This document shows, in pieces, positions 3,601 to 63,049 of a DNA stretch of 64,000 nt. Position 1 is the stretch's first letter. Each line of letters opens with the position of its first letter. The stretch is from Tilletiopsis washingtonensis (taxonomy: Eukaryota > Basidiomycota > Exobasidiomycetes > Entylomatales): contig NW_020312015.1 in the NCBI RefSeq assembly GCF_003144115.1, positions 432,718 through 496,717 on the forward strand, written 5' to 3'. The notes beneath the pieces are model-generated. The model did not search any database. It worked only from the letters and a program-made list of their open reading frames with translations, and was not told the origin of the DNA. The position numbers and the translations under genes are program-made.

Positions 3601-4252
3601 CGAGTTGGTACGAGAGGTCGAAGGACGACTCGTCTTGGACGGCGCAGATGTCGGGCGCCGTGCCCTTGCGGATGGTGAAGCCTTTGATCATGGCAGCAGA
3701 GAGCTGTGGCCGACTGGCCGGCAGGTCGACGAGCTTGCCGTTGCGGACCTTGCTCATGAGTTGCACGCGCAGCATTGACGACCGGCCGTCGAAGTCGAGA
3801 CTGTTGATGACCGGCCGGCGATCGTCGGGCACGAGCGAACGCAGAGTGGCCGTATGCGTAATGGTTGTCTGCAGCCCGGCGTCCTTGTACAGCCGATGCA
3901 GGCTAATCAGGTTAAGCCCGACCTGCGGGCTGACCTGCACGTCGCGCAGTTGCAGGCGGATGCCGTGGTCGTCGTCATCGCCGTAGATCGTGACGTTGGC
4001 GAAGCCAATATGCGTGATTGCCATGCGACCGCCGTTGGCAACGGTCGAGTAGGCGCCCTCGATCTTGCGGACTGCAGTGAGCAGCTTTGGGTCGCTGCAG
4101 CAGTGGCTGGTGGCGCCCAAATCGAGGAGCCAGAGCGACGGCTGGGACTTGTTGTCGATGGCGAGCTGGCGCTGTAGGAGCATGATGCGCTCGCGCACAT
4201 CATCCTGCATCGCCGAGTTGATGCTCTCGTCGAAGCGGGTGAGACTCTCCAC
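671..4252 (-). CDS. copia-type pol polyprotein (protease, integrase, RT, RNase H)
   Basis: An open frame of about 1193 residues carries the copia pol domains in order. A protease-like stretch lies near the N-terminus. It is followed by the integrase zinc region (H-x-L-G-H...C-x2-C) and an integrase core with DDFSRKAW. A reverse transcriptase follows, with GSRWVYKLK and the YVDD catalytic box. The RNase H has the TALSTAKAEYVALCEA and TKHFDVKVHFVRE motifs. The element copies itself through RNA and inserts by integrase. Pol follows gag on the same strand; how it is expressed relative to gag (families use frameshifting, read-through or splicing) was not determined. Family assignment is secure. 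Activity cannot be inferred. Confidence 0.93.
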   Translation of the reverse strand: MESLTRFDESINSAMQDDVRERIMLLQRQLAIDNKSQPSLWLLDLGATSHCCSDPKLLTAVRKIEGAYSTVANGGRMAITHIGFANVTIYGDDDDHGIRLQLRDVQVSPQVGLNLISLHRLYKDAGLQTTITHTATLRSLVPDDRRPVINSLDFDGRSSMLRVQLMSKVRNGKLVDLPASRPQLSAAMIKGFTIRKGTAPDICAVQDESSFDLSYQLAMTWHKKLGHASLAKMVVLAERKLIPLSVVDLKAILRANALECAACQEANIIVAPYPTSTSTSTAPLQLVAADLIGPIKGPEVNQQFFVLTMVDDFSRKAWSFVIANKTSELILETLKLFVVENATVLHKLAAIRTDNGGEFCSKIVKQWCQSNGVLHQRTIADSSKQNGLAERFNRSVQTRVRAMMAAKSVPVRFVRYAYLAATFIGNRLPHSAIENQIPEEVFSGKSVEIKHLPTFSCLVFFRTTAAQAAKQQAPDSHGEPITLGKQQAQRGVPGLLVGYPPATRKGYTIFAIDSEAFITARSIRAFEHVNPVLYLLNRKLRLPLKLNIEHFTDYDAPEHADDAEPAPNEFLNTPPGSPALVGDDTGAGDTSEVPAISLCVPELSREELAGLDIDALDRHLSAIDAEEHSPLPEYSLVARAPGTRITSADGVQLEPQHLAEARQRPDWSKWEKAMAREYESLVAHGTFEVVPRPPGTKIVGSRWVYKLKLDLAGRVLKYKAQLVAKGFTQTEGLNYEATFAPVARLDSLRFALAIGALYGFTWQQLDYDSAYLNGDLEHEVFMAPIPGFPVANGCVLRLRRSLYGLKQAGRKWNKVFHRVATDAGFRQCPKEPCVYARRPTPSSSDADLTILVVYVDDLAIGARRKEDQESAITDLCARFKATRGGALNWMLGLRIEQSVVNGSPHIRISQRAYVEALQKRFGFARDKGKRKTTPIVAAQDRLVPCDVAKEGEATPAERHEFASLLGALNWLGQCTRPNVCYALSKLARFTQQPTQSHIRLLKGVLRYMLGTIGYGIEYGGKQPGHGVKKILAHSDSDFAAASNPSAKSISGYVVFINGGAVSWRSKLQSLTALSTAKAEYVALCEAAREVKFLADVVQFLGLSHSFGAPIILGDNKAAHKIANDPAFHSRTKHFDVKVHFVRELVARKEIVLHQVATADNAADVLTKQSDQKRFAESVRQLLIVNCRASAPEA

Positions 4253-4396
4253 CTCGTTGGAGGAGTCGTTGCCGTCGTCGGCATCGTTGTTGCCCGAGGA
4301 GACGGCGGCGATGAGCGCTTGAGGCTCGGCAAAATAATCCGCCTCCTCGAGATCGGCGGCGTACGCGTAGTGGCCGGCGTTGAGCCGGCCGCTCTC

Positions 4397-6775
4397 TCAA
4401 TCGCTGGCTGCCTTCGGGCACTTGCGTGCCCAATGGCCCTTCCGCCCGCAATAATTGCACTCATCGTTGGGGTTGCGAGCCGCACGACGACGAGTGAAAG
4501 CGGGACGAGAGCCAGGCGAGCCTTGCTGGCGAAGAGGAGACGGGCCGCCCATGTGGGGCGGGGAGTCGCGCGTCTTCTCGCCGGGAGAAGAGTGGGCGTC
4601 GCGCTGCTTGCCGGCATTGCGACGGCGAGTGTCGCGGACGGCGGCGAGGACGTTCTCCTCGGACCAGCTGGCCATGTCGTCGAGAGTGACAGGCGCAGCC
4701 GGGAGGACGGCCATCGCTCGATCGTCGCTGCAAACGACAAGGGACGTCGCGCCGGTTTCGACGGTCTTCTGCGTCTTGCGCAGGGCAAAGTTGTCCTGCT
4801 CGTACTGCAGAAGGGCCGTGTAGCACTCATCCAGCGTCATGCCGGGCCACTCTTGGACTACGTACTGAGGGTTGTTCCTCTTGTCACGCATCTTGAGAGC
4901 GTTGTGCTGATCGCGTTGCGTTGTCATCGTGCAAGATAGGACGAGGCCGAAGGCGGGGTTGAGGCCAACGCGGAAGGTGTTGACGAGCGTCTTGTTGTCG
5001 ATTGTGCCGCCACGCGAGAGGAGGGCGCCGTGTAGCGTGCGGAAGTTGAGGATGTAGTCCTCGACCTTGTCGCGCGCGTCCTGCTTAAGGTGCATTAGCT
5101 GGGTCATCGCCAGCGACCGCTCCTGCTCAGTGTTTGGGCGGATGCCATCCTTGAGCAGGCGAAACAGAACGGAGCCCAGGTTGCGTGCGTTCGTGAGCCC
5201 CATGCCCGTCGCTCCGGGCCCGATGTAGTGTGCGCGGGTGGTGTCCGACACTGTGCCGAGCAGAACGGCGCCGAGCTGCACGTCGAGAGTGGCGCTGTAG
5301 TCAATGTTGGCCGTGTTGCCGATCATCGGCTCGACAGAGCCGTCGAGGATGCCCCAGACGGGGTACCCGCCGTCAGGCATCTCGCTCTCGAGTGCGGCGC
5401 AAAGCTGCTGCGTGAAGCTCTCCCATTTAGCTCTCGTGAGCTTGGAGATATTGCCCATGAAGGAGCAAGACGCCAAGCTCTTCTTGGGCATCCTCGGATC
5501 GACCGGAGGAGCCTGCGGGAGCGTCGTGGCAGCGCGGCCGCCGGCAGGGGCAGCGCCGAGTCCCAGCTGAGCCATCTGCTGAGAGATCTGCTGCGCCACT
5601 TGCTGGGCAACTTGCGACTGTGTCGAGCCCGCTGCCATCTGAGGGACAGTGCCCGTCGGGTCACCGTTTGGGTAGGTGATCATGCCCCAAATGTCGCGCA
5701 CGAGGCCTTGGCGAAAGGTGGTGATCTCCTTGGCCGCAACGGCGGGATCGCCGTGCGTCTGCATGATGGCCTCGACTTTGTTGTGGAAGTACGAGCTGGT
5801 TGCGCTGCTGGTCGCGAGCTTGACGAGGACGTCGCGGACGCGAGTCTTGTTGACGGCGGGTGGAGCGACAGAGTGGATGTCAATCCATGCCTGGTTGACC
5901 CAGTCGGCGATCGCGATGCGGTCGTCGTCGAGGATGGCCGAGGCATCGAACTTGGTCATCGCGGACAGGTACTCGAGAGGGCAGTTGCCGATCGTGACGC
6001 GGAGGTCGAAGGGAGCATCACTGGCGATGATGCGCGTGCCTTGTCCGTTGAAGTTCCACTTCATCAAGCCGCCCGATGGCAGTGCTGTGGGAGCTGCGGC
6101 CATCCTGCTTCCAGTTGGCGCAGCCGTGGGCTTGGAAGAGGCAGAGGGCGTGAATGCGGGAGCCGAGGAGGAGAGAGCGACGACAGGGGCGACGGCCAAG
6201 GTAGAGGCTTCCGGCGCGGAAGGGAGTTCCTTCTCAGGAGACTCAGGGGCCTTGCCTTGACTCTTAAAGAAGGTATTGGCTAGAGGCGGCCGAGAGCTGT
6301 CCTTGGGCGAGGAGAAGGAAAGCAAACGGAAGAGAGAGGCGGGCAAGCGTCTGGTCGACTTGGTCGGGGAACGTCTTGTGGACTCGGTCGGTGACAGTTG
6401 GGAGTCGCTGCTGCTACCGACTCGATGGAGGAGGGCCCTAGTGTTGCCAATGAACGAGCCAATGGTCTGGCCAGTGCGTGAGCTGGAGGGGCTGGCACTT
6501 GGCGAGACGGCGGGCTCGGAAGGTTCTGAGAGCGGCTCGAACTCCTCGATCCACAAGGGGTAGTTGGCCAAGAGCTTGCTTGCCCTAGCTTGATCGGTGG
6601 CTCGGCTGAAGTGCCGGTTGATCTCTTGGCGTTGTGCCTCGCTGTACGACGAGAGGTTCAGGAGAGAGACCCTCTCGCTGTAGAGGTCGCTGACGGCCTT
6701 GAGACGCTCTGAGCGTTTGGGCTTGAGAGAGGCTGCGTAGAGAGCGTCGTAGAGCTGTCGAGCGCTGTAGACCAT
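4397..6775 (-). CDS. copia-type gag polyprotein
   Basis: An open frame of about 792 residues lies immediately upstream of pol on the same strand. The C-terminal part contains a CCHC zinc knuckle of the form C-x2-C-x4-H-x4-C (CNYCGRKGHWARKC), the nucleocapsid signature. The middle matches the general copia gag layout, including a UBN2-like region with a conserved Trp and a Lys/Arg-rich tail before the knuckle. The N-terminal 250 residues are Ser/Pro/Ala-rich and probably disordered. It would form the virus-like particle that packages element RNA. It is longer than many copia gags because of this extension. Confidence 0.88.
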   Translation of the reverse strand: MVYSARQLYDALYAASLKPKRSERLKAVSDLYSERVSLLNLSSYSEAQRQEINRHFSRATDQARASKLLANYPLWIEEFEPLSEPSEPAVSPSASPSSSRTGQTIGSFIGNTRALLHRVGSSSDSQLSPTESTRRSPTKSTRRLPASLFRLLSFSSPKDSSRPPLANTFFKSQGKAPESPEKELPSAPEASTLAVAPVVALSSSAPAFTPSASSKPTAAPTGSRMAAAPTALPSGGLMKWNFNGQGTRIIASDAPFDLRVTIGNCPLEYLSAMTKFDASAILDDDRIAIADWVNQAWIDIHSVAPPAVNKTRVRDVLVKLATSSATSSYFHNKVEAIMQTHGDPAVAAKEITTFRQGLVRDIWGMITYPNGDPTGTVPQMAAGSTQSQVAQQVAQQISQQMAQLGLGAAPAGGRAATTLPQAPPVDPRMPKKSLASCSFMGNISKLTRAKWESFTQQLCAALESEMPDGGYPVWGILDGSVEPMIGNTANIDYSATLDVQLGAVLLGTVSDTTRAHYIGPGATGMGLTNARNLGSVLFRLLKDGIRPNTEQERSLAMTQLMHLKQDARDKVEDYILNFRTLHGALLSRGGTIDNKTLVNTFRVGLNPAFGLVLSCTMTTQRDQHNALKMRDKRNNPQYVVQEWPGMTLDECYTALLQYEQDNFALRKTQKTVETGATSLVVCSDDRAMAVLPAAPVTLDDMASWSEENVLAAVRDTRRRNAGKQRDAHSSPGEKTRDSPPHMGGPSPLRQQGSPGSRPAFTRRRAARNPNDECNYCGRKGHWARKCPKAASD

Positions 6776-6850
6776 GCCCTAAGGCTAGTGGTTGCTTGCC
6801 GCGGGTAGTCGCTTTGCTGTTGAAGGCGACAGCGAGAGGTACCAGACCTT

Positions 6851-25835: not shown

Positions 25836-25927
25836 GTCTCACTGGCACAGTTGGCTAGCGCGTGGAGCTGTTATCGACTCGATTCGCAATCACTCCGAGG
25901 TCGTTGGTTCGAACCCAACGTGGGACG
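25836..25927 (+). tRNA. tRNA-Asn (GTT) with an 18-nt intron
   Basis: The acceptor stem GTCTCAC pairs with GTGGGAC, and the discriminator base is G. The D-loop has AGTTGGCTA. The anticodon stem TGGAG pairs with CTCCG once an intron of about 18 nt following position 37 is removed, leaving a loop with C-T-GTT-A. The T-arm is GTTGG-TTCGAAC-CCAAC and carries the B box GGTTCGAACCC. The mature length is 74 nt. Anticodon GTT reads AAC/AAU. The D stem has one A-C mismatch. Confidence 0.88.
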
Positions 25928-38799: not shown

Positions 38800-41700
38800 A
38801 TGTCGACACCAACGCCCACACCCGCGCCGCCCGACGTGGCGCTCGACAGCCCCGCCCGCGCCGCGTCCTTCCGCACGACGGCCAGCGGGACAGGCAGCAC
38901 GCGCACGCTCTCCGGCCTGCGCAGCCGCCTCTCGTCTAAGCTCAAGGGCCACCGGCACACGGAGAGCGCGCCGGCGGGCTGGGCGCCGAGCAGCGACGAC
39001 AGCACGGCCTTTGACCCCGCCAGCGAGCCGGCGCAGGGCGGCGCGGCAGACATCCAGGACTCGGCGGCGCGAGGCCGGCCGGGCCACGCGCGCAACTTCA
39101 GCAGCGCCAGCGCCGCGAGCGTGGGCCAGGCGCCGCCCGTCGTGGCGCGGGCTGCACACGCTGTCGCGCAGTTGGCGGGCATGAACCCGATCACAGCGCA
39201 GCGGCAGCTCATCGTCGGCACGCTTGTGGCGACGGCGCTGGCGGCACAGCTGCTCAGCCGCCTGCTGCACTGGAGCGTCGGCCTGATGGCCATCGGCGTG
39301 GGTGCGCATCTGCTGCTCTCCAAGCTCGACATTGCGGCGCGCGACAGCGCGTGGGAGCGCGAGACGGCCACTCGCGAGGTGAGTCGCCAGACGTGTCAGG
39401 TCCTGCACACGCTGAGCCTCTGCAGTCGCAACCTCACAACGCCGAGAGCGCCGAGTGGATCAACCACGTGCTGGGCGTTGTGTGGCCGCTCATCTCGACG
39501 GACTACTTTGTGCCGTTCGTCGACCTGCTGGAGGATGCCCTGATGCAGCAGGTGCCCGGCATCGTGCATGGCTGCCGCGTCGACGGCCTGGACCAGGGCA
39601 CGATTCCGCTGCGCATCGTGGGCTTTACGCGGCTGCCTTCGCACGAGGAGGCCTTCCTGCACGGCGCGGATGCCAAGCACAACGTCAGCGAGGCGGAAGA
39701 GACGCTGTCGGACGTGGGCGACTTTGTCGTGAGTAGCGTGAAGATGCGCCCAATGCGGCAGGGCTGACGCTGCGCAGAACCTCGAGGTCAGCTTCGCGTA
39801 CCGCGCGCCGAGAGCGCGTCGCAAGATGGCGAGCTCGAACAAGGCCGAGGGGCTCGGCAGCGAGGCGGCGGGCATCGAGGATGAGGAGATCGACAGCAGC
39901 GCGGCGGAGCAGATCCAGTGAGCCTGCCACTGTTGGCGCTCACGCTGCACCTGCTGACCTTTTCCAGCCTGCTCATCTACATGGCCATCGGCCTGCAGAA
40001 GCTCGCAGCCGTCGAAGTGCCCGTGTGGATTGAGATGCTGGGCATCGAGGGGAAAATGCGTCTGCGCCTGCAGCTCACGCCCGCCGCGCCGTTTGTCAAG
40101 CACGTGGCGTTCTGCTTCGTCGGCGCGCCGCGCATCGAGATCTCGGCCAAGCCGCTCGGCCGGCGCATGGTCATTGACGCCATGAACCTGCCGCTCATCT
40201 CGTCGTACGTGCTGCGGTCCATCGAGGCGGTGATCCGGGACTTTATCGCGCCGCAGTCGTGTGAGTCAGGGAGCAGAGGAGGCCCATCGCGGTGGAGACT
40301 GACCCATTCGCAGATTCGATCGATGCTGGCGCGCTGCTCAGCGCCGCCGACGGCCCGCAGAATGTCTACGCGCTCGGCGTGCTCGTGGTCGTCCTGCACC
40401 GCGCGACAGACCTCCCAGCTGCCGACGTCGGCGGCACGAGCGATCCGTTCATCAAGATTTCATTTGCGCGCGCCGGCAAGCCGCTCTACATGAGCCGCGT
40501 GCTCGTCAAGACGGTCAACCCGGTGTGGGGCGAGACGGCCTTCCTGCTCGTCGGGCCGGACGAGGTGCGCGACCACGAGCGCATGCGGCTGGGCGTCTTC
40601 GATGCGGATCGCTTCAGCAGCGATGACGAGCTGGGCCACGTCGATGTGTCGATCGCGCGGCTCATCCGCCGCAGCCTGCACAAGGAGAGCGATGCCGACG
40701 CGCCATCGCTCATCGAGGACCGCGACGACCCGCTCGTGCCGCCTCGCCGCGGTGCCGTCACATCAGGCCGCCTGCGGTACTCAGTCGCCTTCTGCCGGCT
40801 TGCGCAGCCGACCAGTGGCGGCCGCTCGGCACACCGGCAGGACCTGCTGCGCCAGGCGGCGCGCAACGCCCCATCCTCTGCAGGCGCCGAGAAGACCCCT
40901 CTCTCGCTGCCGGACTCGGCGAGCTACGACGACAAGAAGGATGACGCGCCGATCCCAGAGCACCTGCTTACGGCCTTCGACCGCTTCGTCGTGCGCATGG
41001 GCTTCCCACTCGACGACGCCGTGATGCGCTCCCGCGCCGAGCGTGCCGAGCGTGTCGCCCGCCTCAAGGCCCTCATCGAGGGCGAGAACGACGCGACGAC
41101 GTCGGCGCCGCAGCCCGAGTGGCCGGCCGGCATCCTCGCGTTCCACATCCACTCGATCGACGGGCTCGAGGTGCCGACCACGCAGCGCAACTTCAACAAC
41201 AGCAAGCGCCTCGAGAAGAAGCCGCGCTACACGACTTCCGACGAAGCGGCGGGCAACAAGGCGACGCCCAAGTTCCCCAGCTCGTACGTGCAGGTCTTCC
41301 TCAACGACGAGGCCATCTTCCGCACGCGCACCAAGGCGCTTGATCCGCGCCCCTTCATCAACGCCGGCGCGGAACGCTGGGTGACCAACTGGCAGACGGC
41401 GCGCCTCGACTTTGTCGTGCGCGACCAGCGCATGCGCGAGGCGGACCCCATCTTGGGCCTCGTGGGCCTGCGCATCGCCGACGTGCTCAAGGAGAGCAGC
41501 CGCAGCACGGGCTACTACACGCTGACCGGCGGCCTCGGCTTCGGCAAGATCCGCCTGAGCCTCGTGTGGCGCTCCGTCGAGCTGCGGGTCCCGCGTGCGC
41601 TGTCCGGCTGGAATGTCGGCGTGCTGGAGATCAGCGCTGCACGCGTGTCGGGCCTGCAGCTCGCCGACGTCGACGATGGCCGTCCTGCCCAGCTGTACTT

Positions 41701-42955
41701 TGAGACCGTCGGCGGCACCGCGGAGACAGAGACCAAGGAGCCGCACGCCGAAGGCACTGCTGGCGCCACGATTGGCTACGACTATCCGCTGCAGCAGTCG
41801 TTGCGCCTACCCGTGCGGCAGGTGAGTTGCGAGCTCAGCTCTTTTCTGCGCACCCGCTGACGTTCTTGACAGCGCTACCCGTCCTACCTCTACATCCACC
41901 TCCGCAGCGACTCGCGCGTGCCCGGCCGCCGGCACAAGCACGCGCACGGCGCCATCCCGCTCAACCGCATCGCCGACGGCGAGGGCGTCTTCAAGCGCGT
42001 GCAGCTCTTTGCCTCTGCCGAGTGGCAGGAGATCGAGCAGCATGCACTGGGTCGCTACCCGCCGCCGCAGAGCGTAGAGAAGGGCGCCGAACGCGCCGTG
42101 CTCGACGAGATGATCGCTGCCACGGACTCAAACGAGCATCCGGAGAGCGAGACGCTGCGCCACGTCGGCTTCGTCGATCTCACGTTTGTCTACCACGCCG
42201 GCATCGCGCAGGAGCACCGCAGTCTCGTCGCCGGGGGTGCGTGTAGATGAGCCTGCCCCTGCTGCGCACGCTGACACCTCTTAACGCCAGACAACGAGCT
42301 GCGCTACGCCTTCGAGACGTTTCTCGCCGGTATCGACGGCGGCGAGCGTGCCAAGCCGGCCAAGCTCAGTCCGGCGCTGCGGCGCAGTCTCTCGCTGGCG
42401 CATGTGAAAGACGAGCCGCGCCTGTCGGAAGAGGACCCGGATCGGAGCTACGGCAGCGAGGCGAGCACGTCGGGCAACGCGCTGCGCGTCGACACGGGCG
42501 CGGCGGAGGCCAGCTCGAAGCACAGGGCTGCCGCGGCTGTCAACCCCGATCTGATGAGCCCGGAGGAGCGCGAGGAGCAGGAGGGCGAGGAGTCGGACCG
42601 CGAGTGGGAGGAGGGCAACAACGAGGTCAACGAGGATGAGGACGACACGACGCCCGAGGGCCGACGGGCCCGGCAGCGGTGAGCGCAGGGCAAGCTGCTG
42701 TCGTCACTCGGCCGGTGCTGACCCTCCTTGCAGCGCCCTGCACCGCCAGCACAAGGGCGCTGCGCAGATCAAGGGCTACCGCTCGCTGCAGTGGGTCGCG
42801 CAGAATGCGCAAGATGGCCTCGGACGCGTGAAGGTGAGCTCCGGAGGGCAGCGCATGCGGTGCTGCGTGCTGACGCGCGACTGGCGCAGCGCATCGCGGG
42901 CCAGCAGAGCAAGAAGATGGGCAAGATGGAGAGCGAGGGCGTCAGTCACTTCTGA
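38800..42955 (+). CDS. SMP- and C2-domain lipid-transfer protein (Mug190/tricalbin-like)
   Basis: Nine exons (38800-39378, 39426-39728, 39778-39917, 39968-40260, 40314-41821, 41873-42236, 42291-42678, 42734-42833, 42890-42955) give 1246 residues. A disordered N-terminus leads to a hydrophobic hairpin (about 130-175, LIVGTLVATALAAQLL). An SMP domain follows, opening with AEWINHVLGVVWPLIST and ending YVLRSIEAVIRDFIAP. A canonical C2 domain comes next (GVLVVVLHRATDLPAADVGGTSDPFIKI...KTVNPVWGE), then a second C2-like region (FHIHSIDGLEVP). The C-terminus is acidic then basic. SMP proteins move glycerolipids between the ER and another membrane. S. pombe Mug190 has this layout; tricalbin is the alternative. 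Confidence 0.85.
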
Positions 42956-51348: not shown

Positions 51349-51570
51349 ATGCGCACGCCTCACCACACCACTCTTTTGGGATACACACTAGACACGGGCT
51401 CAAGGTTGCACGGCGCCGATCACTCTCACTCCTAGACGCGCAATGCACGCGTGACTGCCGCAGCAGCTCCACTGCGAACAAGCGCCGCGCTCTGGAGGAT
51501 GACGGATTGCCGAATGTGTAGTGTACATGTGAGATGGGAGCACGGTCCTCGACGCACGGCCGCCGCGGGG

Positions 51571-54474
51571 CTATGTCGTGACGACGAGCGCGGCCGACAC
51601 GACGTCGAGCACCTCCTCGGTGCGCCGGTTGGGATGCTTGGGGTCCTTGAGCGCCAGCTGCCACTGCTCGCCGTGGTGCGGCTCGGCGCGGATGCAGCGC
51701 TCGCGCACCGCTCGCCGGCTGTCGTCCGTGCCGTGCTGCGCCTCGAACTTGGCCCACCAGGCCCAGCCGTCTCCCCAGTCCGCGTTCGCCTTGGTGGCAC
51801 GCTCGAACCACTTGCGCGCCTGCTCCGTCTTGCGCTCGTTCCAGAACATGCGCGCCACGCTCGCAATGACGCGCGCGTCGTCGCCCGTCTTGTTGAGCGC
51901 ATCGGCACTGCGTGTGCGTCGTGCTGCTCGCGGCTCGAGCCAGATGGACGCAGCCCACAGCAGGCCGGACTTGGGGTGTTCTTGCAGGCCGCGCGCAATG
52001 AGCGCCTTCGCCTGCGGCGCGTTGCCCGAGCGCTCCTCGACGCACGCCGCCTCGTGCCAGAGCACGTCCTTGTCCTCCGACTCTTTGAGGCGCGCCTTCT
52101 CCAGCAGCGCACGTGCGCGGATCGCCAGGCCAGCGCGCTCCTCCAGCCGGCTTGCGTTGATCCAGAGCACCGCAGATGTAGGGCACGCCTTAAGGCCGGC
52201 AGTAAGCGCCTCGCGCGCGGCGCGGAAGTGCGCACCGTCCTCGCCCGGCGGCGTGACGGCCTCGAGCAGCTGCGCGTGCATGATGTGCAGCTTCCAGAAG
52301 GTAGGGAAGCGCTTCAGCGCCTCGCGCACCAGCTCGAGCGCCTCGGTCGTGCGCCTGTCGTTGCGCTCAAAGACAGCGCTCTTGAGCCAGACGCGCGGCG
52401 TGTTGACCTCCTGCCGTGCGCGCTGCAGGAGCAGGCCGGCCGCCTGCTTCTGCCCGTTCTCCGACTCGAGCTTGGCGGCGGCGAGCGAGATCTCCTCGGA
52501 GCCCATGTTCTTGTCAAACGCGCGGATGAGCACTTGCCGTGCCGCCGCCACGTCGCCGGCGCCCTGCCACTTCTCCTTGGCGTAGATGAGCCAGAGCACC
52601 TCGGCCTTGGGACACATGGTCACGGCGCGCTCCAGCAGGCCTTCGAGACTCTGCGGCGTGCCGTGCTTCTTCTCGATGTCGACGGCCAGGCGCCAGATGC
52701 TCTGCCGATCGGGGAACTCGCGCAGCGTATAGGCGAGAATGGCGCGCGCCGTCTCGATGCAGCCGCGCTCGACGCATGCTTGTGCGTCCTCGACCCAGAC
52801 TGTCCGCCGGTCCTCCTCCTCCACGTCGAGCGCGATCGTCGCCTTGACGATGGCCGCGCACGTCGCCGGACTGCCCTCGCGCTCGACGCGCTCCGCCTCC
52901 TTGAGCCACTGCTCGCGATTGAGCACAGCGCCGGCCTTCTGCAGGCGCTTGACAGCCGTAGCCATCGTGCGGTCGAGGTTCGCCTGCGTCTCGTCGGCCG
53001 CCTTGCCCTCGTCGTTGCTCGTCTGCTCGACGAGGCGCGCCGCGGCAATCCAGATCTCGTGGCTGCTTGGCAGCGTCTGGCGCGCCTTGTTCAGCACCGA
53101 CTGCGCCTCCTGCGGGCTCGACAAGCGCGCCAGCGCCAGCCAGAGGTCGACGGAACCCGGCACTGCTGCGACTGCGCCGCTGAGCAAGATCCGCGCGTCC
53201 TCGTGCGACTCCTCGAGGTTGACGAGCTCCTTCCACAGCTTGATCGAGTTGGGAATGTACTCGAGGCTCTTGCGGATGACGCGCTTCTTGCTGTTCGTGT
53301 CCGTCTCGAGCTCGGCAGCCTTGAGCCAGATCTTGACCGACGTCGTGAGGCCCGCAGCGATGGCACGCGCCAGCACAACCTTGGCGTTGTCGCGCGTGTT
53401 CAGCCGGGCACTCTCCAGCCACACGTCCTCGCTCATCTTGCAGTTCTCGCAGCCCTGCGCAATGACCTTGCGCGCAATGGCCATCTTGCCCGCCACCTCT
53501 TCGAGGCGCGCTGCGGCGATCCAGCCGGGCGCGTGCTTCGGGTTCGTCTTGATGACGCTGTCGAGCAGGCTGCGCGCCTTTTTGATGTCGCCAATCTCGG
53601 TGCTGGACTTGACATTCACAGACGAGAGGTCAGTGAGGTAGCCCTTGGGGTCGATGGTCGACGACGTGCCGAGCGACGAGGCCGTGCCGTCGGCGCGGCT
53701 CGAGCTGCCGGCCTGGTCGAGCTTGTGGCTGAAGATCTTGTTGCGCGCCTCGCCGATCTCCGTCAGGCTCGTCGTCGTGCCCATGGCCGTCGCCGTGCCG
53801 TCCTCCATCTGCTCGGCGCTCAGCGAGCTCTCCGTCGCGGTGCGGTCGCGATTGCCGATGAGCACGCTGTCCGGCACGGCGTACGTACGGTCGTTGCCAG
53901 CTCGCGCAGCGGCAGCCTTTCGCCGCTTGCCCGTCAGGTTGCCCGCCTCGGGCAGCGTCGCCCACTCCTCGTCGCTCACGGCGCTGAGGCCGCGCTTGAG
54001 GTCTGCAAACTGCGCCTGGATCTTGGGCCGCTCTGCCCGGTACTTCTCCAGCTCGGCTTTCTCGCGCGCCTCGCGCTGCTTGCGCCGCCGCGCATCCATG
54101 TTGTCGTCGACGCTCTGCCAGATGCGGTCTGCCTCCTCGTCGTCGCGCTCGTATACGGTGCCGGCAAAGAGGCCCGTCTCGTTCTCCGGGTCCTGGTTGG
54201 CGTCGGCGTCCTCCTCCTGGCCCGGCCCGTCGCCGCTCTCGGGGCCCTCGCCGCGCTTAGCGCGTGCGGCATTGATCGTGTCCTGGCTCGGGCCCTCGCG
54301 CGCCGGACCGATGTCCGAGCGCGTGGTGAAGCCCGAGGCGCCACGTCCCAGACCCGCCACATAGTTGGCCGGCGGCGCCTGTGCGCAGGGCGGCTGTCAG
54401 TGGCGCCGCTGAGCAGCACGCAGCCCGGCACGCACCTGGTTCAGGAACGCAAGCTTGTTGTTGACGGACGCCAT
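51571..54474 (-). CDS. PRP6: pre-mRNA splicing factor Prp6 (U4/U6.U5 tri-snRNP)
   Basis: Two exons (54474-54436 and 54378-51571) give 948 residues. Prp6 bridges U5 and U4/U6 in the tri-snRNP. The N-terminus has the PRP1/Prp6 domain: AFLNQAPPANYVAGLGRGA and FTTRSDIGPAR. The motifs ETGLFAGTVYERDDEEADRI and RRRKQREAREKAELE follow, then FADLKRGLSAVSDEEW. From about residue 270 it is a long array of HAT/TPR helices (repeated W-x2-A-A-R-L-E). The length and order match yeast and human orthologues. The tiny first exon is typical for this gene. It is divergent from RPA49. Confidence 0.96.
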
Positions 54475-54702
54475 GGCGCGGGCGTGCGGACAGCAGAGGC
54501 TGCGCGGGGCGAGGTGTGGTGGAGCGGTGAGAAGGTGGCAGGAGCAGCTGCGCGCGGCGGCGGCGTGATGAGCCGCGGGTCTGGCGCCGGCGCGCTTCGG
54601 CCTTTTCGGCGCTGCCCGCCCGACGCGCCACATTTTTGGGTGAGCCGCGCGCCCCGAGGTGCTTCGCGCGGCTCTCTTCTCACCCACACCACCTCACTCA
54701 CC
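54475..54702. promoter_or_regulatory. bidirectional promoter, PRP6 and RPA49
   Basis: The divergent start codons are 228 bp apart, the shortest divergent spacing in the window. Both products serve core RNA synthesis or processing, so co-regulation is plausible. No named motif was identified. Confidence 0.55.
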
Positions 54703-56672
54703 ATGGACCAGTCGCCGCCAGACGTGAAGCGCCAGCTCGGCGAGGCATCCGCCGGATCGCCGCCGAAGAAGCGCAAGACCGACGAGAAGCAGCGGGCGCG
54801 CGACGAGAAGAAGGCCAAGAAGCAGGAGAAGCGCGAGCGCAAGGCCGTCAGCCTGCAACGCTCGCAGGAGCTGCGCAAGCTGAGCAAGAACACGGACAAG
54901 TACAACAACAAGTCCAAGGAGGAGAAGCGCACCAAGCCGGGCAAGGCGGACGAGGCCAGCGGTGCTGCAGCAGTGTCGCAGCCGCGGCCAGCGCCCAAGC
55001 CCCAGGCAGGGCAGGCAGCGCTGCGCCTGGAGGGAGACGAGAGTGCAGTTGGGCCGGTGCTTGGTGAGTGAAGGGAGGGCACAGAAGGACATTGGAGGCG
55101 TGCCAAGCGGGCATCTCGGCCGATCCTCTCGCCAGCCCTGCTGACTCTCTCGCCCAGCCGAGTTCGGCGACTTCGCGCCGCACAGCGGCACGCAGTACAC
55201 GCTGTACTCCAAGGCGCCGGGCAAGACGGCGTCGTTTGACGACTCGATGCTGCTCGTTGGCGAGACGGACACGATCACGTACGTCTCCAACAACTGGCTG
55301 AGCGGGCGGGCCGGGCCGAGCCAGGAGCCCGAGACGCGGCTGGCGGCGCGCGACTACAGCGGCGAGTGAGTGCGCAGAGTTGGGTACCGCCGGCAGTCCG
55401 CTGAGCCTGTGCTGTGACAGGTACCTTGTGGGCGTGCACGACCCAGCGACATCGACTGTGACGCTGCGTGCGGCGCCGCTCTTCCTCTTCAAGCGGCGTG
55501 TCAAGGCGCTGAGCGACATGACGTCGAGTCTGGCGGCCACGCGCGACAATGCGGCCATCGACTGGGAGACGCGGCAGAATCAGCGGCGCGACCTGGGCGA
55601 TGCATTTGGCAACCGAAAGACGAAGCTCAAGGCCAAGGCGCAGGACCGCATGAAGGTGGACACGGGCAACATGGGCGCGGTGATGGACTCGATGCGCCAG
55701 CAGATCGAGGACAGCTCGCGCGGCATGGCCGATGCGGGTGAGTAGGCTGCGTGCACCCACTCGCTTCTCTTCGCTGACAATTCTCGCAGACGCCGTCAAG
55801 GCCGAAGCGGACGCCCAGCGCGCCATCCCGCCACCCAATTTCGATGCGACGGAGCCGAGCGAGGCGTACCCCATCGCCTCGATCGTGCCGAATGCCATCT
55901 TCTACGCGCTCAACATCGCACCGCTGCTCAAGGCCGAGGACCAGGGTCACCTGCGCAAGCTACTGCCGGGACCCGGGCCATCGCATTCCGACTGGCTCGT
56001 ATCGCGCACCTGGGATGCCGTGCAGCGTGCGCTGTACGGCACGAAGGGCGAAGGCGGCGCCGAGAGCATCCTCAAGACGAGCGGCAGCAAGGACGAGGGC
56101 AAGCTGCGTCTGCGCATGTGTCTCTTCATGGCGCTGCTGTGGGCGTTCAGACGCAGTTCGGCGCTGGTGGCCCGCGATCGCGAGGCATTGAGTGAGAAGC
56201 TGCGGCTGCAGGGCACAAATAGCGGAGAGGTGATCATGGAGGATCTGCTCTCGCGCTTTGCGGAGCGGCAGCGCGGCGGCAAGAAGTGAGTCTCGCGCGG
56301 ACAGGTGCAGGGGTGCGGCGTGCTGACGGGGTCTGCTCAGGTACGCCGTGACGACGTACCAGGACACGAAGCTGCTCTCGCACATCTTCGCCCTCTCGCT
56401 GCATCTCGACGGCTTCTCCGTGGACTACGGGGCTCTGGCGTCTGATCTCGGTCTCGGCCCTCCCAAGTGAGTGATCCTGCAGCATCGCCCGCTGGACGCG
56501 CTGCTGATCCGCTGCTTGCGCCAGGGTGGCGGAGATCTACAAGTCGCTCGGCTGCAAGAGCGACATTGCGACAGGCCAGCACGCCGATGGCTCGGCGCGC
56601 AAGGAGCGGCGCATGGTGCTGCGTGTGCCGTTTGAGCTGCCCAAGCCCAAGCGTGGCCCCGCGAAGCGCTGA
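54703..56672 (+). CDS. RPA49: RNA polymerase I subunit A49
   Basis: Six exons (54703-55063, 55158-55365, 55421-55737, 55790-56285, 56341-56466, 56525-56672) give 551 residues. A49 with A34.5 forms the TFIIF-like heterodimer of Pol I and supports initiation and elongation on rDNA. The first 110 residues are a strongly basic Lys/Arg extension not typical of yeast A49, with several potential nuclear signals (PPKKRKT, KKAKKQEKRERK). The dimerisation region follows (TQYTLYSKAPGK, LLVGETDTITYVSNNW, DYSGEYLVGVHD, APLFLFKRRVKAL). The C-terminal tandem winged helix includes YPIASIVPNAIFYAL and YQDTKLLSHIFALSLHLDGF, then VAEIYKSLGCK. Family assignment is firm. Confidence 0.92.
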
Positions 56673-57348: not shown

Positions 57349-60300
57349 ATGTTCCGCCTCTCCCTTCTCTTCCTTCCCTGTCTGCTCGTCGCGCTGCTGG
57401 CCACGCCGACGGTCGCTCTCTCGCACAGCTCGCAGCCCGCCGCTCAAGCAGCGAGCGAGGCGTCGGACGCACCATGCTACGCTGTCGCCGGCCGACAGTG
57501 CCACTCGCACGTGCGTCCCGGCGACGACGATAGCGATGGCGCACGTGTGCAACAGCAAGTCCTTCCCGACGAAGTCATCATGCCATGCTACATGCAGGAC
57601 GGCCGGCGCTGCCACTCGCATCACCGGCCGGCGAACGTGCAAGTGCTCGCGCGCGCCGGCGTCATTGCAGCGGATGGAGAACGCCTACCGTGCTATGACA
57701 TCGCTGGCCGCCACTGTCACTCGCATCCTCGTCCGGGCGATGGCTTCTCACTGCGCCGCAGACAGCTCATCACCGTCGACTTCTCCGGCCCATCGGTCGA
57801 GGAGAGCGCTTCTGCCGCGTCTGGCCTGACGACGCCCACTCCGGCGCCGGTGGCGAGCAGCACTTCCCGTGTGCAAGAGGTGACCACGTCCGTCGAAGAC
57901 ACACCAACAGCCGAGGCGAGCTCCACCTCGACGACACTTTCTGCGCCGCCCAGTAGCTCGCAAACGAGCTCTGCTGCCGTTCAGACCCCCGCCTCGACGT
58001 CGCTGGCGCCGTCGACCATCGCGCCATCGGTCACCTCGTCCGCTGCTTCTCTCGCGACAAGCACAACAGCCGTTGCAGTCACGTCCAGCAGCGCAGTCAC
58101 TCGTTCGGACGCTGTACCGAGTTCAACTGCGTCGCGCCCGGCTTCGAGCGCAGCCAGCCTGTACCCGCTGTACACTGCGCTGCCCTCCGTCAGTCGCTTC
58201 GACATTGCGCCGCAGTTGCTGCCAGGCGAGGCGTCCGAACTGCCGGTCATCGTCGCTGGATCGGTGAGCACACATGACTCGCATGCTGATGCGCATCGCT
58301 GACATCTCGCTTGCAGCTCGCCTTCCTGTTCGCTGTCGTCTTGCTGGCGACGAAGCGTCGCATGTCAAGGTCAGTGACGTCGCCCGGTCTGACCTCCATC
58401 CTCGGCTGCTCACGCTCTCTACAGGCCGGTGCTGCTCCTTCTCGTCGCGTTCAGTCTCTCCGCACTGTCCTCGCTTGTGCTTCTCTTCTCCCGCGCGCGC
58501 GTCCCGGGCATCTTTGCCGCCCTGCTCCATCCGATCTGGACTACGCTACTGCTGCTCTGGCTCGGCCTCGCCACACAGACACTGTCCAAGGAGCGTGTCG
58601 AGGAGCAGCAGGCGGTTACGCAGCGCCAGTCGTTCCGTCCGCAAGACTTCGGCTTCGCCATCTCCTCGCTGCCTGCTACGCCCGGCACGGTGCTGACGGC
58701 GGCGACGGCGATGCAGGAGAGCCGCCACCATGTGCTCGTGCGCCGCACTCTGCTCGTCGTCATTGCCGGCCTGGCGCCGCTCGACCTTGCTGCTGCGGTG
58801 CTCTTCGTCGTCGGACCGGCAACTGCTGCTGGAGCTCTGGACCGCATCGCAGCCGTCGTCGGCGCCGGCATTCTCAGCACCATGCTCGTCCGTCTGGCCA
58901 TGGTGGCGAAGCATCAAAGCAGCAAGGAACGACTCGGACAGCTCGCCGTACTCGCTTCCATCTTCGTGCTGCTGGGTGCGTTGCATCCCGCGTCTGCCGC
59001 TAAGCCCTCCGCTGATGACTCTGGCACGCAGCGCTCGCGTGCACATCGCTCGCCCTTCCTGGCTTCCGCAGATCCCCTCTCGGTGTGGTGTTCAGTTCCC
59101 TCATCAGTGTGAGTACATCTTGTTGGCACCTCTTGAGCAACGACTGATCAATTTCACAGCTCGTCCTGCTCGGCGCGTCTTTGTTGCTCTGGCCCGCAGA
59201 GCGCCACACCTCTCGTCGCGCCGGCAGCTCGTACTTCACCGAGCTGCCGACGCCGGAGCGTCGCGGTGGTCCGCCGCCGTACTCACGCTGCACCGGTTGG
59301 CGGATGGACTCGTGCACCAAGTCGCCCGTCTCGGTCTACATTCCCGAGGTGGATCGAGCGCGCACGCCGATCCAGGAGCGCGGCGTCTCGGGCATCTACT
59401 CTCAGTCGCCGCCCGAGATGTCGCAGATGCAGGCTGGCTTCGTCTTTCCGGTCGCCTTTCCCAATCCGCATGGCGGCGATCTCAACCGTGACTGGTCCGA
59501 GTCGCTGCCAGTGCCTCCGGCTCGGCGCCAGAGCGCCGCAGCGCCCACCTCCAGCAAGCAGGTGCGGCCCGACACGGCCAACTCGACTGCCACCTGCGAG
59601 ACGTTCAACAGCGACGAGCGTCATACTGCGCAGGCCGTCATCGTGGAAGTGGCCGAGGTGATGCCCGCCGTGGAGCGCACCACGCACGCTCGCATGGTCT
59701 CGCTCGGCAGCACGCCAAGTCTCTCGCGCAAGGGCACGGCTCGTACCCAGCGCTCTGGGACGCTCAACAGCTGCAAGAATCTGCCGCCGCTGCCTGGCAG
59801 CACTGAAGTCTGTCGTTCCGTCTCGGCGAACACGATGAACGGCTCCGACGCCCATGCTACGCACATCCATGGCGAGCTGCTGGACCGCTTCCCGACGCCG
59901 CCATCAAGCCCGGCGCGCGAGAAGGAGCGTGCGAGCCCGCGCAAGGCCGTGCCCCGCTGCTCGCCTCTGGCTGCCGCCGCCGACAAGTGGACTGCCGAGC
60001 CGGACTTTACGACTGCCTGGCCGCAGGACGCAGCTCACGATGGAGAGGTGGAAGCTGATGGTGCGAGCCGTGCCAACGTCAAGCGCTCCTCGAGTCACAC
60101 GCACCTGAGCGTCACAAGGTGAGCCTGCTCGGACTTACCCCAACAGGCCCTGTGCTGACTCCCTCGCAGCTTCATGTCCAGCCTGGCGCGCAACAAGGTC
60201 TACCCTCGCACCGCCTCGAGCGAGCAGAGTCGTCCCTCCGTAAGCGCCAACCGCGACGAGTTCGTGGCCGACGCCGGAGCGCCTGCCGTGCCCGAGCTGC

Positions 60301-60611
60301 CCCTCGGCGCCGCAGCCGAGGGCACACCCACCTTTGAAGTTACTCAGCGCTATTCCGATCTGCCCTTCCCTGCGCCCGCCTTCTTGTCGCAGGCCGGTCG
60401 CGGCAACTCGATCAGCAGCACGGCCTCGCAGCAGAGCCCCGCGTCGCCTCTTTCTCCTGCCTGCCTTCTCGCTCCGGGCACCTTCAGCTCGACCGGCAGC
60501 ACCGGCCGCGACAGCGGCTCCTCGCAGCCGCCGACGCCGTCGCAGTACGGCACGCCGCGCGGCAGCGCCATTCTCGAGCCCGACTCGCAGCTGCCTTACT
60601 ACGACGAGTGA
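57349..60611 (+). CDS. mucin-like seven-helix membrane protein with triplicated C-x7-CHSH motif
   Basis: Six exons (57349-58263, 58317-58369, 58425-58975, 59032-59108, 59160-60118, 60170-60611) give 998 residues. A signal peptide (1-24) leads to three copies of P-C-Y-x3-G-R-x-C-H-S-H-x-R-P at about residues 42, 79 and 114. A Ser/Thr/Ala-rich mucin-like stretch follows (about 145-285). Seven hydrophobic segments lie near 298-318, 324-345, 352-374, 431-455, 464-485, 494-515 and 522-545, then a tail of about 450 Ser/Pro-rich residues with many SP/TP sites. The 57-nt third intron is required to restore helix 6. An outside N-terminus with seven helices is receptor-like, but no GPCR or other family motif is recognised. 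Cys/His spacing suggests metal binding. Function unknown. Confidence 0.72.
57472..57738 (+). repeat. three coding copies of the PCY...GRxCHSHxRP motif
   Basis: Copies lie at 57472-57522, 57583-57633 and 57688-57738, spaced about 111 and 105 bp. Eleven of sixteen residues are identical in all three, while synonymous positions and linkers differ. This points to old duplication with selection on the Cys, His, Gly-Arg and Arg-Pro positions. Confidence 0.9.
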
Positions 60612-61047: not shown

Positions 61048-62991
61048 TCAGCGCATGCTGACGAAGCGCCGAGCCGCCGCCGCCGTCGTCTCGGTGGGGC
61101 TCGTCGAGCCAAAGACGTCCTTGCGAGCGCTGCGAGCCGAGCCTTGCTTGGCTGTGTTGCCCTGAGCCTTGCTGCCCGGCTCCGAAGAGCCAGCGGCGCG
61201 GCGCTGCTTGCCCGAGGGGCCGACGTTCTCCTTGCCCCTGGGCTCGTGCGAAGCACGGGCAGCAGGCGCCTTGGCGCTAGAGACCTCGCCCTTGACTGCA
61301 CCGCCGCAGGCGGTAGGTGGGCCGAGCGGCGTCCAGGCGCCGTCGTCGGTGCTTCCAAGGTCGAACACGCCCCACGGAGACATGTCGCCGTCGCGGTTGG
61401 AGGTGGCCTTGCGTTCCGAGAGGCCGCGACGCTTGGGTGGCGAGGCCGTGGCAGCCGACGCACTCGTCGGCGCCGAACCAGGACGGCCAGAAGAGGCGCC
61501 CTTGTTCTTCGACGCCGTCGGGCTGGAGACGTGGGCTGCCGAGCCGTCGGCGGGCAGCGAGGCCGCGGCGGCCATGGCGCGCTCGCGCAGCAGGTCGGAG
61601 CGAGCTTTGCTCTGTGTACGCAGGCTCGGACTCTCTGCACCGGCAGTAGCGCCAGCGGCGGTGGCAGCACTCGGCGGCGAGGCGTTGTTCTTGGAGCGCG
61701 ACGCCGAGCTGTACGGCGTCAGACGCGTCTTCTCGACGTGTGGCGTGAGGCCGGAGGAGCGCGTAGGACCGACGCCCGGCGAGCTGGAGCTGAGCGTGCG
61801 CACGAGGGCCGGCGTGCGGCGAATGGCAGCGGGTGCGTCCTCCTGCATGACGTCGCGCAGCGGCGGCTGAGCAACGACGCCACGACCAAGGCGCGAGGGG
61901 CCGGCGGCGGCGTTGGACGGCGCATACTCGAAGTCGATGCCAAGGCCGCGCACACCCTCCATGCGAGGCATGCCACCCTCGATGCAGACGGTGCGCTCAC
62001 GCTCCATCTCGGCAGCGCGGACGGCACGCGGCGTCCAGCTGCTCATGGGAGCGGCCGACTCGGCGGCAAAGGGCGTCGAGTCGAAGCGCAGCGGCGCCTG
62101 CCAGCGAGCGTCAAGGGCGGGCGAGATCGGGCTTGAGGGCACCGTGCTCTCGAAGCGGCCCGAGCTGAGGCGCGGTGCTCCGGGCATGACGGGAGCACCC
62201 CAGCTGTGCAGCGTCGGCGTGGCCAACGGCGAAGAGAGCGAGGGAAGACGCGGAGTCATGTCGCCGCCAACGAGCGCCAGACCGCTCATCTCGGCGGCCA
62301 TGGGCGAGTCGCCGCCGTGCAGCTGCAGGCCGAGACCCTCGACCTTCTCGTCGGAGGGCATCGAGCGCCAGCTGTTGCTGCCGGACGACGACGACGGGTG
62401 CCACGTACCGCGACGGATCATGGGCAGGGCACCGGTGCGCAGACGAGGAGCGGCGGGCGGCGCCATGGAGCCACTGCCCGTGGTCCACTCAGCCGGCTGG
62501 CCTGAGAAGACGCCGGTCGCCGAGGGGCGGAGCGCTGGCGGTGCCTGCATCTCGCCATCAGCGAGCACCTCCTGCTCGGAAGAGTAGAGCTCGGGCTGCG
62601 CAGACGGCGGCGGCGAGTCGACGTTGAGCATCACGCTGAGGCCTGGCAGGCGCATGCGCTGCTGCACGCCACCGTGGGACGAGCTGGACTGGCTGTCCGG
62701 CTTGCTGCCGTCGATGGGCGAGAGCTTCAGACCGGCGGTGACGGGCGTGGGCGGCAGACCATCGATGGAGATGGGGCTTCGCAGCGCGAACGCCTTGCTG
62801 GAAGGACGCAGCGGGTCGGCAGAGGTGCTGGATCCATCGGCGCTGGCCATGGCGCTGTCGAGCGAGAGCGACGAGTTGAAGGAGGGCGAAGGCCACGGCC
62901 GGGCCTCGCTCGCAGAGACGCGAGACGAGATGATGTCCGCCGGGCGCGGCTTGCCCGAACGGGTGCTGGAGAAGGAGCCGGAGGCCTGCAT
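61048..62991 (-). CDS. large disordered Ser/Pro/Ala-rich protein
   Basis: A single coding exon of 647 residues. No known domain is recognised. The sequence is rich in Ser, Pro, Ala and Gly with many SP and TP dipeptides, typical of a phosphoregulated disordered protein. Short segments look constrained: KVEGLGLQLHGGDSP, GLGIDFEYAP, SPWGVFDLGSTDDGAWTPLG, and a basic C-terminus ending ARRFVSMR. High codon G/C bias over the whole length supports it as real. The ATG at 62991 is chosen because a spliced leader intron ends six bases upstream. A nuclear or cortical regulatory role is possible but cannot be inferred. Confidence 0.75.
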   Translation of the reverse strand: MQASGSFSSTRSGKPRPADIISSRVSASEARPWPSPSFNSSLSLDSAMASADGSSTSADPLRPSSKAFALRSPISIDGLPPTPVTAGLKLSPIDGSKPDSQSSSSHGGVQQRMRLPGLSVMLNVDSPPPSAQPELYSSEQEVLADGEMQAPPALRPSATGVFSGQPAEWTTGSGSMAPPAAPRLRTGALPMIRRGTWHPSSSSGSNSWRSMPSDEKVEGLGLQLHGGDSPMAAEMSGLALVGGDMTPRLPSLSSPLATPTLHSWGAPVMPGAPRLSSGRFESTVPSSPISPALDARWQAPLRFDSTPFAAESAAPMSSWTPRAVRAAEMERERTVCIEGGMPRMEGVRGLGIDFEYAPSNAAAGPSRLGRGVVAQPPLRDVMQEDAPAAIRRTPALVRTLSSSSPGVGPTRSSGLTPHVEKTRLTPYSSASRSKNNASPPSAATAAGATAGAESPSLRTQSKARSDLLRERAMAAAASLPADGSAAHVSSPTASKNKGASSGRPGSAPTSASAATASPPKRRGLSERKATSNRDGDMSPWGVFDLGSTDDGAWTPLGPPTACGGAVKGEVSSAKAPAARASHEPRGKENVGPSGKQRRAAGSSEPGSKAQGNTAKQGSARSARKDVFGSTSPTETTAAAARRFVSMR

Positions 62992-62997
62992 TGTGAA

Positions 62998-63049
62998 CTG
63001 CAGAGGTGTGAGCCTCCGGAGGCACACAGCGCAGCACTAGCAGACTCAC
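62998..63049 (-). other. 5' UTR intron of the disordered-protein gene
   Basis: On the minus strand a GTGAGT donor at 63049, a GCTAGTG branch-like site and a CTGCAG acceptor at 62998 define a 52-nt intron ending six bases before the ATG. Confidence 0.6.

Follow-up and report, generated by a model that had tools for sequence, protein, structure and literature searches.

We analyzed a predicted gene at positions 57349–60611, on the plus strand, of a 64,000-nucleotide stretch of the Tilletiopsis washingtonensis contig NW_020312015.1 (the window, below). The gene has six exons separated by GT-AG introns, and its open reading frame encodes 998 amino acids. As read from the sequence, the protein consists of a signal peptide, three copies of a Cys-His motif, a Ser/Thr-rich stalk, seven hydrophobic segments and a long Ser/Pro-rich tail. 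An earlier note on this DNA had described this layout, and every part of it was recovered here. Our preferred but tentative interpretation, whose chance we put somewhat below even, is that the protein is a seven-helix surface sensor that may bind extracellular zinc through the three motifs. All features of the gene given below lie on the plus strand.

In the preferred splice model, the exons are 57349–58263, 58317–58369, 58425–58975, 59032–59108, 59160–60118 and 60170–60611. The start codon at 57349 is the first ATG in its frame. Introns 1–5 are 53, 55, 56, 51 and 51 bases long, and each contains a branch-point-like element (CTGAY in introns 1, 3, 4 and 5; CTCAC in intron 2) that begins 15–20 bases before the 3′ end. 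The guanine plus cytosine (GC) content of the DNA studied is 67.8%, and codon position 3 has the highest GC in all six exons (0.68–0.83). The weak point of the model is the junction of exons 3–5. We enumerated the GT-AG pairs in this region for introns of 45–120 bases, and 30 combinations kept the frame open. These were ranked with a crude custom donor score written for this analysis. The top-scoring combination, with introns 58976–59031 (donor GTGCGT) and 59109–59159 (donor GTGAGT), scored 8.0 compared with 7.0 for the next two.

The first splice model (intron 3 at 58976–59071, intron 4 with donor GTGTGA) gave poor helices 6 and 7 and was dropped. All earlier models were superseded by the preferred model, in which seven segments are clear. 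Intron size, branch-like element and hydropathy agree in this model. The predicted six-exon structure is well supported, and the exon number given in the earlier note is right under this model. Helix 1 is interrupted by intron 1: exon 1 contributes 8 of its residues and exon 2 the other 11. The ectodomain and the membrane block are thereby linked within one protein. If intron 1 (58264–58316) is retained, the frame continues for 12 codons before a stop. A soluble ectodomain with all three motifs may thus be a second product of the gene.

The signal peptide spans residues 1–24 (57349–57420), with a hydropathy peak of 2.36 at residues 6–24 and a cleavage-like end, TVA-L, as judged by eye. Behind it lie the three motif copies, CYAVAGRQCHSHVRP at residues 43–57 (57475–57519), CYMQDGRRCHSHHRP at residues 80–94 (57586–57630) and CYDIAGRHCHSHPRP at residues 115–129 (57691–57735). 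The C-x7-C-H-S-H-x-R-P pattern reported before was confirmed at residues 43, 80 and 115, and the three copies share the longer consensus P-C-Y-x3-G-R-x-C-H-S-H-x-R-P. Of its 16 columns, eleven never vary (P C Y G R C H S H R P); in 7 of these 11 the copies differ by silent codon changes. In an ungapped comparison, none of the 26 flanking columns listed is invariant. Residues that stay fixed despite silent codon changes, next to variable flanks, suggest old repeats under constraint at the protein level.

The pattern C-x7-CH-x-H was found three times in the six frames of the 64 kb, each time in this gene, while shuffled DNA gave a mean of 0.09 per window (mononucleotide shuffles in 1-kb blocks, n = 100). 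When residues 25–150 were shuffled, at least one such pattern arose in 197 of 200,000 trials. All six Cys of residues 25–297 fall within the three C-x7-C pairs, and each pair is followed by H-S-H. Dibasic pairs occur before residue 300 only at residue 86 (RR inside motif 2) and at residues 136–138. The latter site, RRR (57754–57762), lies past the last motif and might be cleaved by Kex2. The Ser/Thr-rich stalk, in boundaries that are our own slice, covers the 147 residues 151–297 (57799–58239), with 41% Ser plus Thr and 15 Pro.

Seven hydrophobic segments follow the stalk. Helix 1 (residues 298–316; 58240–58349) is split by intron 1 and has a hydropathy of 2.65 when spliced. Helices 2–5 lie at residues 325–343 (58429–58485), 351–369 (58507–58563), 434–452 (58756–58812) and 464–482 (58846–58902), with hydropathies of 2.63, 1.77, 2.47 and 1.96, respectively. 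In the preferred model, helix 6, LAVLASIFVLLALACTSLA (residues 496–514; 58942–59054; hydropathy 2.51), runs across intron 3 (58976–59031), and helix 7, LGVVFSSLISLVLLGASLL (residues 523–541; 59079–59186; hydropathy 2.33), runs across intron 4 (59109–59159). Lys plus Arg number 4, 7, 3 and 5 in the loops after helices 1, 3, 5 and 7, the last of which was cut at residue 569 for charge counts, and 2, 1 and 2 after helices 2, 4 and 6. These counts fit a topology with the N-terminus outside and the C-terminus inside (N-out/C-in). The topology is consistent with the sequence, and charge argues for it only weakly.

The tail, presumed to be cytoplasmic, comprises residues 542–998 (59187–60608). It is 457 residues long, close to the 450 estimated before, and contains 63 Ser, 52 Pro and 15 Ser/Thr-Pro sites. 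A PPxY motif, PPPY, is present at residues 570–573 (59271–59282), and 28 residues separate it from helix 7. WW domains, including those of Rsp5, typically bind PPxY motifs, so the presence of PPPY makes ubiquitin-controlled turnover plausible. Adjoining PPPY is a fourth C-x7-C pair, CTGWRMDSC (residues 576–584; 59289–59315), which has no CHSH part.

The protein had been called unrecognised, and profile searches bear this out. In Pfam-A, no match above the cut-off was found for the whole protein, the membrane block, the tail or residues 1–154, and residues 1–154 gave zero matches up to an expect value (E) of 10. NCBIfam returned 0 families for the two protein pieces scanned. The receptor-like ectodomain matches no curated model in these scans. 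The sole Pfam match with E below 0.1 was DUF2417 (13.1–15.7 bits compared with a cut-off of 25). Its E ranged from 0.010 to 0.066, being 0.010–0.024 in pieces and in the first splice model and 0.066 for the whole preferred model. We dismissed this match because it lies below the cut-off and reflects similarity of hydrophobic helices. The remaining Pfam matches were weaker still and to unrelated models. A sequence search of PDB with the membrane block gave no match, whether the earlier or the preferred splice model was used. The PDB matches of the ectodomain were spurious, being a uridine kinase at E 0.5 and, with the three-repeat profile, an actin-like protein at E 8.9.

We also searched for relatives in DNA collections. 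In viral_contigs, protein-based searches yielded 17 pattern stretches for the ectodomain and 26 stretches for the membrane block, of which 0 were confirmed in either case, and the motif DNA pattern had 0 matches there. A looser motif pattern gave two matches in genome_contigs. We regard both as chance, with open frames of 77 and 23 codons and with CHSH replaced by CHRH and CHCH, respectively. As the collections searched hold viruses and prokaryotes, the absence of relatives says little about fungi. The AlphaFold models, made from single sequences, were of too low quality to be used. Residues 25–144 reached a predicted local distance difference test (pLDDT) score of 40.3 and a predicted template modeling (pTM) score of 0.27. 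Positions 58426–58977, which encode helices 2–5 and 11 of the 19 residues of helix 6 and run two bases beyond exon 3, reached 59.8 and 0.30. Foldseek with the latter model gave 4 matches up to E 10, the best at E 2.8.

In the open-access literature, no occurrence of the motif strings was found. Judged by title, none of the matches listed for fungal CHSH was about such a motif. Among the matches listed for fungal zinc or copper seven-helix sensors, judged by titles and the starts of abstracts, none was on this protein. A 2025 classification of fungal G protein-coupled receptors (GPCRs) reports 28,294 proteins in 17 classes (PMC12842992). Pfam found none of the class domains of this scheme in our protein (e.g. 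Ste3, cAMP-receptor, Pth11/rhodopsin-like, Lung 7TM or DUF300), on the assumption that the class models are in the Pfam copy used. The 17-class scheme fits the earlier statement that no fungal receptor class is known to have such an ectodomain. However, the same classification leaves a further 141,666 seven-helix proteins, which form 1,969 clusters, outside its classes (PMC12842992), so relatives of this protein may sit unnamed among them.

The idea of a metal ligand, such as zinc or copper, in the earlier note rested on Cys and His at fixed spacing. Each motif has two Cys and two His, which would be enough for one Zn(II) in a finger-like site. For the CHTH peptide of Aspf2, zinc is reported to be bound through two Cys and two His, and for the transporter Zrt1 the likeliest zinc site is given as KKCHFHAGVEHCVDDNNHDA, in which three imidazoles and one thiolate serve as ligands (PMC9780748). 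The CHTHxxGxxHC tail is reported to be kept in basidiomycete Pra1 (PMC12663325). In GPR39, the animal seven-helix zinc receptor, His17 and His19 of the N-terminus are described as binding zinc together with Asp313 (PMC8346997). The metal idea therefore finds outside support in a fungal peptide reported to bind Zn(II), which has CHxH and a second Cys. For copper, no specific support was obtained, and another soft metal in place of zinc is less likely.

A Candida albicans study presents evidence for an extracellular zinc-sensing system, describes fungi as lacking a GPR39 orthologue, and names Zrt1, a yeast transporter, as an example of a zinc-sensing transceptor (PMC5871664). From the layout and these precedents we infer a surface location, zinc binding, sensing and signaling as follows. 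The mucin-like stalk would project the metal sites into the cell wall. Binding of metal may change the ectodomain or draw the repeats together, and this could shift the helices. Readout would be through the Ser/Pro-rich tail. The proline-directed phosphorylation sites of the tail and its PPPY suggest regulation by kinases and by Rsp5-type ubiquitination. The stronger form of this proposal is that the protein is the first fungal receptor dedicated to extracellular zinc, unrelated to animal GPR39, and that three zincophore-like Cys2His2 sites carried on a mucin stalk form its ligand-binding ectodomain. We consider this form unlikely.

Several points weigh against the zinc sensor. Cys pairs of secreted proteins usually oxidise to disulphides. 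If this happened here, two thiolates would be lost and only H-S-H would be left. HRxxH and CHxHxxGxxHC are both absent from the 998 residues, as are the DRY-like and NPxxY motifs of class A GPCRs. The net loop charge is +4, +2, +2 and +2 after helices 1, 3, 5 and 7 compared with +2, 0 and +2 after helices 2, 4 and 6. Because these values are nearly equal and the loops after helices 1, 3, 5 and 7 are longer, charge says little about topology. For Pra1 itself, a C-terminal zinc site with four His and no Cys is reported (PMC9780748), and in a cryo-EM study the zincophore core is identified with a His triad (HRxxH and a further His), the CHTH tail not being resolved in that structure (PMC12663325).

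We compared the zinc sensor with five other explanations. The motifs could be three disulphide-closed loops (C-Y-x3-G-R-x-C) that bind a peptide, a sugar or a cell-wall polymer, with His for contact, so that the protein would be a wall or ligand sensor on a seven-helix base. The strict pairing of the Cys and the invariant Gly-Arg between them agree with such loops, as does the oxidation of secreted Cys pairs mentioned above. PTH11 receptors are described with the same general layout of a Cys-rich ectodomain and seven helices (PMC1088943). However, such loops leave unexplained why His-Ser-His is conserved as strictly as the Cys pair, and no ectodomain match, CFEM included, was found in Pfam. 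We regard this explanation as doubtful, though worth keeping in view. It is improbable, in our judgment, that the protein is instead a tethered zinc catcher whose motifs gather wall zinc and hand it to a ZIP transporter, in the way that Pra1 supplies Zrt101. The ligand set equals that of the Aspf2 C-terminal peptide, but the HRxxH core of zincophores is absent, and no adjacent zinc transporter was seen in a Pfam scan that covered four other proteins of the window. A 457-residue Ser/Pro-rich tail with 15 Ser/Thr-Pro sites and PPPY is also unneeded for catching, although it could serve turnover.

The protein could also be a basidiomycete sensor of ambient pH like Rra1 or PalH/Rim21, with its clustered His titrating near neutral pH. 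Rra1 and its orthologues are reported with 7–8 predicted helices, and a possible role of histidine in pH sensing by Rra1 is proposed in the same paper (PMC4393102). There, however, the membrane region of Rra1 lies within residues 1–290, so an ectodomain of about 297 residues would be hard to accommodate. PalH, whose model is assumed to be part of the Pfam copy, was absent among the Pfam results for this protein, and we find a pH sensor quite improbable. A peptide precursor, from which cleavage by Kex2 at RRR 136–138 or retention of intron 1 frees a soluble three-motif peptide, is very improbable. RRR does lie behind the last motif, and the retained intron would stop the frame in time for a soluble form. 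Between the repeats, however, there is no dibasic site, RR inside motif 2 being the only other pair, and KEX2-processed repeat proteins (KEPs) are defined by KEX2 sites between repeats (PMC6339444), so the KEP reading fails the defining test. Finally, exon 1 and the membrane exons might come from separate genes, or the locus might be silent. The gene structure is predicted from sequence, which leaves some room for such an artefact. Against it stand the sharing of helix 1 by exon 1 and exon 2, the five introns alike in size with their branch-point-like elements, and the GC peak at codon position 3 in all six exons, and we give it hardly any weight.

If the protein is a zinc sensor, it offers a concrete and quickly testable candidate for the question of how fungi sense extracellular zinc. 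If the motif binds something other than zinc, it still marks a receptor-like ectodomain without a matching curated model.

The neighboring loci do not suggest a zinc locus. Upstream, on the same strand, lies the 3′ part of an RNA polymerase I A49-like gene (Pfam E 4.4e-30). Downstream, a 662-codon frame at 61048–63036 on the minus strand converges on the gene studied; it is Ser/Pro/Ala-rich by eye and has no Pfam match. Elsewhere in the window, two minus-strand frames of 1241 and 793 codons at 671–6778 look by eye pol-like and gag-like, as in a copia-type retrotransposon. A tRNA-Thr gene (anticodon TGT) at 25836–25927 on the plus strand is the sole tRNA found in the window, and its 92 bases suggest a small intron. 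A C2-domain protein (E 1.7e-23) is encoded at 40265–41860 on the plus strand and has a weak match, below the cut-off, to the third C2 domain of Mug190. A Prp6-like splicing factor (PRP1_N, E 3e-49) is encoded at 51571–54396 on the minus strand. The 1211-codon open frame opposite it, at 51436–55071, is probably an effect of high GC.

Several known systems share features with the protein. Like KEPs, it has a signal peptide and internal repeats, but KEX2 sites are missing between the repeats, and a membrane block and a tail come after them. With PTH11-like receptors that carry CFEM it shares a Cys-rich N-terminal ectodomain, seven helices and a presumably internal C-terminus, whereas it has neither a CFEM match nor any other in Pfam; reports of the PTH11 class are confined to Pezizomycotina (PMC12842992, PMC1088943). 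Rra1 of Cryptococcus neoformans and PalH/Rim21 are likewise fungal proteins with seven helices (7–8 in Rra1 orthologues). The early membrane region of Rra1 sets it apart, in a comparison made by published layout only. GPR39 is a rhodopsin-like (class A) receptor. It resembles our protein in its seven helices and in a His-x-His pair of zinc ligands in the N-terminus, whereas our protein has three copies that include Cys pairs and has no rhodopsin-like Pfam match. The tails of Pra1 (Candida albicans) and Aspf2 (Aspergillus fumigatus) share with the motif an extracellular fungal Cys-His-x-His and a second Cys, with Gly between. Their motif, however, is C-terminal in a soluble, secreted protein, which in Pra1 also has the HRxxH core, whereas our protein carries three N-terminal copies on a membrane protein with the ligand order C...CHSH and no HRxxH. 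The lack of HRxxH and of CHxHxxGxxHC bars membership in the zincophore family, but it does not bar a similar chemistry.

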